DNA from: Candidatus Rokuibacteriota bacterium
GTDB lineage: Bacteria; Methylomirabilota; Methylomirabilia; Rokubacteriales; CSP1-6
Assembly (NCBI GenBank): GCA_003220435.1
Contig: QHSL01000073.1
Coordinates: forward strand, 1 to 64,000
DNA length: 64,000 nucleotides
Reading direction: 5' to 3'
Shown: piece by piece, positions 30,079 through 32,515 of the stretch
Layout: every line of letters begins with the position of its first letter
How positions within the stretch are numbered: the first letter of the stretch is position 1
Made by a program: the position numbers and the translations under genes
Notes under the pieces: generated by a model
Databases searched by the model: none
Told to the model about the DNA's origin: nothing
What the model saw: only the letters and a program-made list of their open reading frames with translations

Positions 30079-31128
30079 CTACCCGATCTTCGGCCGCGCG
30101 CCAGCCGTCGCCTGCAGGATCGAGTCGGTCATCACGTCCGCGACCTTCGGGGCGGCGCCCTTGAACTGGCCGAGCTCTTCGTAGACGCGGAGCTGCTGCT
30201 CCCACACGCCGGGCTCCATCGTGCCCCAGCCCTTCGCCGCGGTGGCCTTGGTGAAGCTGAAGTTGAGGACGGGCTTGATCGCGTCCAGCTCCGCGTCGCG
30301 GTCCAGGTTCGGGTAGGCCTTCACGAGGAGGTCGACGGCCTTCTCCGGATTCTGATGGGTGTACTGCCATCCCTTGGCGGCCGCGCGAGTGAACCGGGCG
30401 AGCACGTCGGCGTGCTTCTGAATCGTCTCGTCGGTCGCGTAGTAGAGGTTGGCGTAGAGCTGGATGCCCGCGTCCCACAGCCGAAGGTCGATGCGCTCCG
30501 GCCCGAGCGGTTTGAGCGCGCTCGCGTTGGTCAGCCAGCCCGTGACCGCGTCGACCTGCCCCGTCAGCAGCGGCGTCATGTCGCTGCCCATGACCAGGAC
30601 CTGGACGTCGGACTCCTTGATTTTGTTCTTGGCGAGGAGCGCCCTCAGCAAGATGCGCGCGGTGCCCTGGGTGCCGATCTTCTTGCCGACCATGTCTTGC
30701 GGCGTGCGGATCGGCTTCTTCGCCAGCGAGAAGTAGGTGAACGGGTGCTCCTGGTAGCCGACGGCGAAGCACTTGATGGGAATGGAGCCGGCGCGCGCCA
30801 GCATGAGCGAGGGGCTCGACGAGAGGTTCCCCGCCTGCGCGGACCCGGAGGCGACGACGTTGACGCCGTCGACGTTCGGACCGCCCGGCGCGATCTTCAG
30901 ATTGATTTGCTCGGCCTCGAAGTACCCGAGGCTCCGCGCCACGATCTCGCCGATCTGTCCGTTGCTGATGATCCAGCCGAGCTGGAACGTCACCTCGGCG
31001 GGCGCCCCGGACGCCGCGCGCGGCACCGAGACGATGCCCGCGCCAGCCAGCAACCCGGCGAGCGCCGCCGCCGATTGCCCGAGCAAACGACGACGCGTCA
31101 ACCCCTCGCGTACCCGTGGCTCGCTCAT
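30079..31128 (-). CDS. ABC substrate-binding protein, NMT1/SsuA-like
   Basis: This 349-residue binding protein is of the NMT1/THI5/SsuA group. The start at 31128 follows AGGAGG and GGAG. The N-terminal LTRRRLLGQSAAALAGLLAG is a twin-arginine signal ending near AASGAPA. The mature part shows LGWIISNGQIGEIVARSLGYF, the family ligand-site start, and YFSLAKKPIRTPQDMVGKKIG with GTARILLRALLAKNKI. Members bind sulfonates, nitrate, pyrimidines or thiamine precursors. The co-encoded phosphorylase and deaminase favour a nucleoside or base ligand here, as inference. Confidence 0.88.
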   Translation of the reverse strand: MSEPRVREGLTRRRLLGQSAAALAGLLAGAGIVSVPRAASGAPAEVTFQLGWIISNGQIGEIVARSLGYFEAEQINLKIAPGGPNVDGVNVVASGSAQAGNLSSSPSLMLARAGSIPIKCFAVGYQEHPFTYFSLAKKPIRTPQDMVGKKIGTQGTARILLRALLAKNKIKESDVQVLVMGSDMTPLLTGQVDAVTGWLTNASALKPLGPERIDLRLWDAGIQLYANLYYATDETIQKHADVLARFTRAAAKGWQYTHQNPEKAVDLLVKAYPNLDRDAELDAIKPVLNFSFTKATAAKGWGTMEPGVWEQQLRVYEELGQFKGAAPKVADVMTDSILQATAGARPKIG

Positions 31129-31339
31129 CTCCACGCCTCCTCCGATCTCCTCGAACCGCCCCGCCACCTTATCCGTTTTCCCCCAAGAATCCAAGCCACC
31201 GACGCCCCACGCCCGCGCGTCCAAATGCCGCCACGCTCGCGCGCCAAGCGCACGCAGAACAGCAAACCGCGCCGTGCCGGGCGGCGGCGCCTTGCGGCTC
31301 AGTTCGATGTGCGCGTCGCAGAGGCAGATCAACCGCCGA

Positions 31340-31497
31340 CGTCGTCGCGTGAGGGGGTGGGGGTGGGGTCGACGCGACCCGTTCCCTCCCAGCGAAGCTC
31401 GGACGCACCCGCGCGAGATGGAGCCCAGCCGCAAACGGAATGCGCACGCGTGCCGCGTGGTCGCGCGACCCCACCCCCACCCCCTCACGCGACGACG
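31340..31497. repeat. Inverted repeat with 32-bp perfect arms, G-rich
   Basis: Arm 1 (31340-31371, CGTCGTCGCGTGAGGGGGTG...) is the exact reverse complement of arm 2 (31466-31497). They are 94 bases apart, and similarity continues imperfectly for some 15-25 bases outward on each side. The arm holds three runs of 4-5 G separated by single T, so one strand could form a quadruplex and the whole a large cruciform or RNA hairpin. It fills the 412-base gap between the binding-protein gene and the divergent phosphorylase. I see no gene and no other clear element in that gap. Confidence 0.85.
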
Positions 31498-31540
31498 CCC
31501 GCGAGTTGACCTGAACGCGTGCGTCCAATACGCTGCCCGA

Positions 31541-32515
31541 GTGACCGCGTGTCTCTGCAATCTCGATCCGGGCGTCGAGTACGAAGGGCCGCGCGCGATC
31601 TACGCGACGCTCGGCGGAAGCCCCACGTGGGGCCTGGGCGATCGCTTCCACGAGGTCGCGGCGACGCGCGGGCACGCACGGCTCGGCACCCACCGGCCGC
31701 GCACACCGTACGGGCCGGGCCCATGCCTCGAGCACTATCGCGCGCCGAGCGGCCGCGAGTTTCTCCGCATCCCGAGCTACGGCCAGGTGGTCGACGAGGA
31801 TCCCCAGCTCCGCGCCAGCGAGTGGAAGATATTCTGGATCCTGTGGAAGGCCGGCGTGCGCGTGCTGCTCGTCGGCGGTACCAGCGGAAGCTGCGACTGG
31901 CGCCGCTCGGCGGCGGACGAGGACGCCGTGCGGCCGGGCGACCTCGTGCTGCCCAGGAGCTATCTCACCCGCGACACGATGCCGATGGGATTGCCCGGCA
32001 CGGAGCTCGAGTTCTGCCTGCCGCGTCAGGTCGCGATCATGGACGATCCGTTCTGCCCTCCGCTGGCTGACACGCTGCGCGCTCACGCCGGGCGGCTGGA
32101 AAACTTCCGATTCCGGCGCGTCCACGGGCCCGAGGCCGGTGTGGTTCTCAACCGCTGGCTAGCCGGCAACGGATTCGAGTCGCTGGCGACGTGCCGGATG
32201 CTCGAGGCGCTGGGGCGGCAGACCAGCATGCCGGTGATCACCGGCGACTGTGTCAGCCCGGTGCTGGCGCGAGTCTGCGGCATGCATCTGGCGTACTACC
32301 ACGTCGTCGCCAACTGGGGCACCGGCCTCGAGGTCGAGGACCCGACGATCGCGCTGAACCGGCTCTATATGGGCACGCTTGGGGCGGTGGCCGCGGCGTT
32401 CGAGCTCGGCTTTCTCGACACCGCGAGCGAGCCCACCATGTGCCGCTGTCGCGAGCTGCTGCGCGGCCGGCCGCCGGAGTACGCGCGAGCGCAGAGCCCG
32501 CGCGCCGAGGAGTGA
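31541..32515 (+). CDS. MTAP/PNP-like phosphorylase superfamily protein
   Basis: This 324-residue protein starts with GTG 31541. It has the layout of trimeric 5'-methylthioadenosine/purine nucleoside phosphorylases: FLRIPSYGQVVDED, VRVLLVGGTSGSCDWRRSA (the base/phosphate loop), DLVLPRSYLTRDTMPMGL, and a C-terminal VITGDCVSPVLARVCGMHLAYYHVVANW resembling the MTAP D-x-VGMST...A-R-E-x-G-M segment. The catalytic positions differ from classical MTAP, so the function is uncertain. It is the second phosphorylase-type gene near the nucleoside-type importer operon, and divergent from it. The lactonase gene follows 25 bases on. Confidence 0.65.
   Translation: MTACLCNLDPGVEYEGPRAIYATLGGSPTWGLGDRFHEVAATRGHARLGTHRPRTPYGPGPCLEHYRAPSGREFLRIPSYGQVVDEDPQLRASEWKIFWILWKAGVRVLLVGGTSGSCDWRRSAADEDAVRPGDLVLPRSYLTRDTMPMGLPGTELEFCLPRQVAIMDDPFCPPLADTLRAHAGRLENFRFRRVHGPEAGVVLNRWLAGNGFESLATCRMLEALGRQTSMPVITGDCVSPVLARVCGMHLAYYHVVANWGTGLEVEDPTIALNRLYMGTLGAVAAAFELGFLDTASEPTMCRCRELLRGRPPEYARAQSPRAEE

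Follow-up and report, generated by a model that had tools for sequence, protein, structure and literature searches.

A dispersed family of extragenic hairpins with a common core and differing arms in one lineage of Candidatus Rokuibacteriota

An inverted repeat in the window (the whole 64,000-nucleotide stretch analyzed here, positions 1 to 64,000 of contig QHSL01000073.1 in assembly GCA_003220435.1 of a Candidatus Rokuibacteriota bacterium) is, with near certainty, one of a family of hairpins dispersed through extragenic regions, and this family is confined to one bacterial family among the genomes searched. We consider it reasonably probable that the repeat is an intact copy of this dispersed palindromic family, kept as a hairpin at gene borders. 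Multicopy, intergenic and with a common secondary structure, the elements have the general properties of stem-loop repeats, and we regard them as a lineage-restricted form of the known extragenic ones. What distinguishes them is a conserved core combined with arms whose wording is free and whose pairing is fixed. A limited literature search on repeats in Rokubacteria showed nothing comparable among the first ten of 137 papers.

The inverted repeat and its locus in the window

A preliminary description of this DNA had reported a perfect 32-bp inverted repeat with arms 94 bases apart, and exact comparison of the arms confirmed it: the arm at 31340-31371 is the exact reverse complement of that at 31466-31497, each being 32 nt long, with a 94-nt spacer between them. 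The additional imperfect pairing noted outside these arms was also recovered; with mismatches allowed, the arms reach 38 nt and are 95% complementary. On the plus strand the G-rich 5′ arm (31334..31371) pairs with its own partner, the C-rich 3′ arm (31466..31503). Each arm has three G-runs, of 5, 5 and 4, with a single T between runs, as described. From base composition, a perfect 32-nt pair within 200 nt has a rough chance expectation of 6e-11 in 64 kb, and the repeat is far beyond chance. RNA folding of 31331-31506 gave z = -9.7 for the plus strand and -10.2 for the minus strand, and none of 200 shuffles folded equally well on either strand. The spacer (31372..31465, plus strand) holds the conserved core, recognized in alignments A1, A2 and A5 of the copies and by column conservation across 130 copies; inside it, on the same strand, are the core motifs GACCCGTTCC (31376-31385), GATGGAGCCCAGCCGC (31417-31432) and CGTGGTC (31456-31462).

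The gap that holds the repeat lies, as had been stated, between divergently transcribed units. On the minus strand is a gene for an NMT1/THI5-like substrate-binding protein of ABC type (30079..31128; Pfam PF09084, E = 3.6e-48), and on the plus strand a gene for a protein of 324 aa (31541..32515), which had no match at E <= 0.001 in Pfam and NCBIfam; the latter gene occurs in most genomes of the genus. By eye, we noted a candidate promoter for each. That of the NMT1 gene (31166..31194, minus strand; -35 TTGGAT, 17 nt, -10 TAAGGT) is conserved in the aligned alleles, and that of the plus-strand gene (31506..31534, plus strand; -35 TTGACC, 17 nt, -10 TACGCT) was picked out by its conservation. 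A consensus promoter scan called neither of the two. The hairpin ends directly upstream of the -35-like TTGACC, which is present in two of four alleles that lack the element (L256 and L257) and absent from the other two (L254 and L255). A candidate GTG start is found at or near the predicted transcription start, about where it is expected, and given this position the gene is possibly leaderless. Judging from the sequence, the window copy appears to lie between two candidate divergent promoters, outside both predicted transcripts and not in a leader. No tRNA was found in a tRNA search of the window.

Copies, common core and genomic context

Searching the assembly that contains the window (5.44 Mb in 147 contigs) with a blastn-type program, the check that the preliminary description had proposed for further copies, gave 32 matches, of which one was the window itself and one its reverse strand; the other 30 had identities of 73-83%, so that there are about 30 copies in this genome. 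That description had also named single-copy occurrence without conservation in relatives as what would weaken its readings; the element is multicopy and conserved. A covariance model, R1, built from 30 own-genome copies, found 32 matches in the same genome, 30 strong and 2 weak; a truncated copy on contig C25 (L058) and a weak match on C30 had been left out of A1, A2 and R1. L058 (G000:C25:34414-34479) is a half copy, with unrelated G-rich sequence following an intact 5′ half of the core, and it is perhaps a decaying element. Two copies in G000, the window's genome (C127:62126-62276 and C92:69-217), hardly differ from each other and both lie close to contig ends; they may be one assembly-broken locus counted twice.

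Among relatives, R1 was positive in every one of the nine genus members (11-53 matches per genome), in six of 14 genomes elsewhere in the same family and in none of 16 outside that family. A second model, R2, built from 44 diverse copies and run with stricter filters in the order- and phylum-wide searches, was positive in 31 of 60 genomes across the order and 31 of 95 across the phylum. All 31 belong to the 57 genomes of one family, and none of the 38 phylum genomes outside it was positive; five of the 31 are weak (G013, G017, G042, G052 and G063, with best E between 1e-4 and 7e-7). Collections of plasmids and phages gave no element match at E 1e-5, and viral contigs gave none to a two-part core pattern. 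In 25 viral contigs that contain a core 16-mer, R2 matched nothing in the stretches searched, and it matched none of 28 genome contigs that share an arm 20-mer, which indicates that the G-run alone is not the signature of the family. In one further genome, G021, several core matches were seen without arms.

The copies were compared in a set of 106, which includes orthologues and whose members are therefore not independent; 23 of the 32 matches in G003 were fetched, and for G008 and G002 those that fit 20 and 19 regions, respectively. The core is 86-87 nt long in 91 of the 102 copies measured, the stem mostly reaches about 35-50 nt from it (range 21-70 in 106 copies), and the whole hairpin comes to about 170 nt. 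The arms are G-rich on the 5′ side (61% G) and C-rich on the 3′ side. Within each copy they are self-complementary, yet they differ from copy to copy, and no terminal repeat common to the copies was found: the pairing of an arm with its own partner had a median score of 32 (range 10-46) in the 106 copies, versus a median of 9 and a highest score of 26 when arms were swapped. Watson-Crick pairs make up 3813 of 4030 aligned stem pairs (94.6%), with 87 G-T (2.2%) and 54 A-C (1.3%); aligning each copy by itself biases the count toward matches, and when fixed alignment columns were used instead, pairing in the outer stem of 30 copies came to 86.8%. RNAalifold predicted 49 pairs, 30 of which change on both sides in some copy. 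The covariation score of 0.383 was reached by none of 500 shuffled alignments (0.134), and sliding the partners gave at most 0.104. In 130 copies the 15 strongest covarying column pairs all fall in the stem, and the core is conserved without clear covariation. Positions outside the stem are not conserved among copies.

Two further readings of the core were set aside. The signal for extra core helices (50-77 and 51-76) was weak and too small to claim, and the ATGGAGCCC motif was not taken as coding, as single-base indels follow it among the copies. Five copies in G010 (L102, L176, L182, L116 and L191) have a variant core in which GTTCC(T/C)G...TTGGGAACT(G/C)C-like motifs replace GTTCCC...GGATGGAGCCC; the variant suggests a possible GUUCC:GGARC pairing inside the core.

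To place the copies relative to genes we used a home-made codon-score gene caller, by which 95 of the 106 copies had both neighbours called, three overlapped a called gene and eight lacked a called neighbour. In these 95 copies the 3′ side of the element is turned to a stop codon in 64 cases and to a start in 31, and the gaps are tandem in 59, convergent in 29 and divergent in seven. Within tandem gaps the orientation is mildly uneven, with the 3′ side toward the stop in 35 and toward the start in 24. In 61 of 81 unpaired copies, the nearest gene lies on the 3′ side rather than the 5′ side. Cases in which the 3′ side faces a stop account for this bias (27 of 29 and 21 of 27); with a start on the 3′ side and a stop on the 5′ side, the 3′ side was the nearer one in only eight of 18, and in divergent gaps in five of seven. 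A stop codon lies within 30 nt of the 3′ side in 50 of 64 cases and of the 5′ side in 12 of 53.

Some copies occur as close pairs, less than 500 nt apart, at about ten independent loci. All are arranged as minus then plus, with their 5′ sides together, an arrangement whose chance under random orientation is about 1e-6. Members of a close pair are somewhat more alike than average, and among those compared were mutual best matches in two of eight. In the window's genome, the 15 pairs of matching flanks involve members of close pairs without exception, and the flanks of its unpaired copies have nothing in common. In G002 and G008 there were six matching flank pairs, some of them orthologous loci and two of them short ones not accounted for. 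As for the genes beside the copies in the window's genome, 53 neighbour proteins matched 84 Pfam families, the commonest of which, the amidohydrolases, occurred in four, and no common function was evident.

Presence or absence of copies and evolution of the arms

The window locus itself differs between species. We located the orthologous gap in six of the nine congeneric genomes; it is filled in G000 and G003 (90% identical), and in the four others (82-84%) it is short and holds no element, the filled allele being about 300 nt longer than the empty one. Alignment with the empty alleles L254-L257 defines the additional stretch, present in the window's species and G003 and much shorter in the four congeners, as 31197..31505, with imprecise ends; it includes about 135 nt on the 5′ side of the hairpin that are absent from the genome's other unpaired copies. 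At a second locus the copy is found in G000 and is missing from G003 (91% identical), G008, G002, G006, G005 and G007; G004 has an element in the other orientation, and the G001 contig starts inside the query. The elements of G004 and G000 in this gap (L246 on G004:C368 and L240 on G000:C104) have opposite orientations and different distances from the gene, as if the gap had gained an element twice. At a third locus, seven genomes carry the element and an eighth matches it in part. The empty G003 allele of the L063 locus (L241, on C64) contains a short GC-rich, terminator-like hairpin, seen by eye. L158 and L167, on two contigs of G002, both match one G008 locus, L145, and have a common stretch of 5′ flank, and they may be paralogous loci or come from a mixed assembly (the contamination listed for G002 is 9).

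Once in place, the hairpin is kept. In 31 orthologous copy pairs, identity was 85% in the arms and 85% in the core versus 68% in the flanks, the latter measured over the outermost 60 nt of each 120-nt flank, which may include coding sequence. Among the stem pairs of these copies, 782 were unchanged, 108 had changed on one side and 100 on both, where 27 double changes are expected if the arms change independently. The excess was also seen when the 15 pairs from G000 and G003 were taken by themselves (41 observed, 9 expected) and when four pairs with poor arm alignments (L122/L150, L165/L095, L158/L145 and L088/L166) were set aside (95 observed, 24 expected). Equal-length indels point the same way: in 11 of 33 cases they occurred in both arms at the same place (within 6 nt), one of them a 5-nt insertion in both arms, while the permuted mean was 2.6 and none of 10,000 permutations gave as high a count. 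At one orthologous locus G003 has the core in reverse orientation compared with G000 and G002, and the arms there are only partly alike; a second insertion instead of an inversion is possible.

Template switching between the arms of inverted repeats is reported to lead to homogenization of the arms and inversion of the spacer (PMC8604942). The matched indels and double changes are what such arm-to-arm switching would give, and from these comparisons we think it likely that copying of one arm from the other is largely what keeps them reverse-complementary. This conclusion is less certain in that only 76 of the 100 double changes give a Watson-Crick pair in both species (24 do not) and the inverted core may have arisen otherwise. 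The arms also diverge singly, the one-sided changes being about as many as the two-sided. We read much of the stem covariation as probable concerted evolution of DNA, together with selection on the whole hairpin.

Relation to known elements and possible role at gene borders

As many-copy extragenic palindromes with inversely oriented pairs, the elements resemble REP sequences and BIMEs, as these are characterized in PMC3733652 and PMC8266576. They differ from REP palindromes, which carry a conserved tetranucleotide tag (such as GTAG or CGTC), in size (about 170 nt versus 20-50 nt), in the lack of conservation outside the stem, in arms that are not conserved among copies and, compared with the REP/RAYT (TnpA-REP) system, in that nine congeneric genomes have no Y1 (HUH) transposase. 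Families such as bcr1, ERIC/IRU, NEMIS/Correia, RUP and CIR, given as 50-300 bp, mostly intergenic stem-loop repeats in PMC2267715 and PMC2229807 (bcr1 from its table row in the former), share with our elements copy numbers in the tens or more and predicted folding into long stems. By the table in PMC2229807, Correia, ERIC, RUP and RPE have terminal inverted repeats common to their copies, whereas here the core is common and the wording of the arms differs from copy to copy; CIR and YPAL are listed there without shared terminal inverted repeats. The arm homogenization and spacer inversions of PMC8604942 are like those suggested here, although that case concerns short repeats in yeast genes and ours a whole dispersed family with a 94-nt spacer in the window copy.

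We weighed four other explanations. The preliminary description had suggested the remains of a small non-autonomous mobile element. Short dispersed copies and presence or absence between species, as in MITEs, lend this suggestion partial support, and the close pairs that all run minus then plus recall BIMEs; the copies, however, are maintained rather than decaying, with arms and core kept across species, so that a mere remnant does not fit. A MITE or REP-like selfish element mobilized in trans by a transposase is in our view rather doubtful. Unlike the terminal inverted repeats of MITEs, the arms are not common to the copies, and the own-genome unpaired copies have no common flank. Target duplications, another check that had been proposed, were not evident at two loci with empty alleles, which are too diverged for exact ends. 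Two enzyme families were compared with carriage of the element, and neither tracks it: Y1_Tnp (PF01797), which the same search did find in other genomes, occurs in none of the nine genus genomes despite their 11-53 copies each, and a reverse transcriptase domain is absent from seven of these nine and from the high-copy genomes G021, G061 and G062. A RAYT partner and a reverse-transcriptase partner were therefore both dropped. Comparably doubtful is a lineage-specific transcription terminator or mRNA 3′-end stabilizer. A GC-rich hairpin shortly after many stop codons, within 30 nt on its 3′ side in most stop-facing cases, is like intrinsic terminators; divergent gaps are rare (seven of 95), and the short GC hairpin seen by eye in G003, in a gap where G000 has a copy, would also fit. 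Against this reading, a T-tract near the stem end was seen in none of 106 copies read on the plus strand and in two read on the minus strand (one and three in a wider stretch), and a scan of the window found none after the stem. The conserved 86-nt core and the one third of copies whose 3′ side faces a gene start, the window copy included, are equally unlike intrinsic terminators. A 3′-end stabilizer, which needs no T-tract, may still fit.

Strong covariation of a closing stem would also be expected of a structured non-coding RNA, either a cis-acting leader or a small RNA, for which the palindrome is only the template. The conserved core with its possible small helices speaks for it, as do two observations on the plus strand that count against a role at the DNA level only and lean to an RNA from that strand: G-T pairs exceed A-C pairs (87 vs 54, p = 0.007), and in the G010 copies a U-G/U-A exchange is seen by eye in GUUCC:GGARC. 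Still, G-T pairs at 2.2% are not far above A-C pairs at 1.3%, and one-sided stem changes gave plain mismatches in 51 cases, against 31 for G-T and 24 for A-C, a profile unlike that of a wobble-tolerant RNA helix. The core has no clear covariation. No Rfam family was matched in the window at the gathering threshold; with E up to 10, the window element hit eight models, seven for microRNA precursors and one for an lncRNA, with scores far under the gathering level, which is a generic response to a long hairpin. The strand relative to genes is not fixed, the neighbour genes in the one genome inspected have no common theme, and neither predicted transcript includes the window copy; on these grounds a riboswitch or other cis-regulatory leader was rejected. 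A small RNA with its own promoter may be the remaining form of the RNA explanation, which as a whole we hold to be unlikely. As to a chance or single-copy palindrome, or a G-quadruplex regulator, which the G-runs in the arms had brought to mind, the copy number of a conserved family refutes it and it is hardly credible; among the 106 copies, 42 have a four-run G4 motif in one or both arms, the window copy has none in either, and quadruplex formation is not a property of the family as a whole. Overall, the preliminary description is partly supported in its interpretation, and its cruciform, or a hairpin, is a plausible form of the element and the one favoured.

On the preferred reading, of a palindromic family kept as hairpins at gene borders, template switching within the palindrome would copy one arm from the other, and purifying selection would act on the whole hairpin. 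The hairpin or cruciform would most likely act at the DNA level or as a barrier at transcript ends, and this barrier would separate neighbouring transcription units. The conserved core could be the recognition site for a protein, and the element may spread rarely, as a passenger of some enzyme. We infer the border or insulator role tentatively, at somewhat less than even confidence, along with a protein partner for the core; the window copy speaks against the border role, lying between candidate divergent promoters, where a transcript end is not expected, as do the failure of the 3′-side bias in the eight-of-18 class and the mildly uneven orientation in tandem gaps. More speculative, and rather improbable in our estimate, is a kind of element defined by its core, in which the arms are endlessly rewritten one from the other, so that about 30 differing hairpins stand at gene borders and a lineage-specific protein that reads the core insulates genes or organizes the chromosome.

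For the interpretation of covariation in general, a palindrome that is homogenized at the DNA level can yield strong "RNA covariation" without any RNA. Matched indels of equal length favour arm-to-arm copying over ordinary compensatory mutation, and this bears on the use of covariation as evidence for RNA. With its many copies per genome and its many species, the family provides natural replicates of gain, loss, possible inversion and concerted evolution of the arms.
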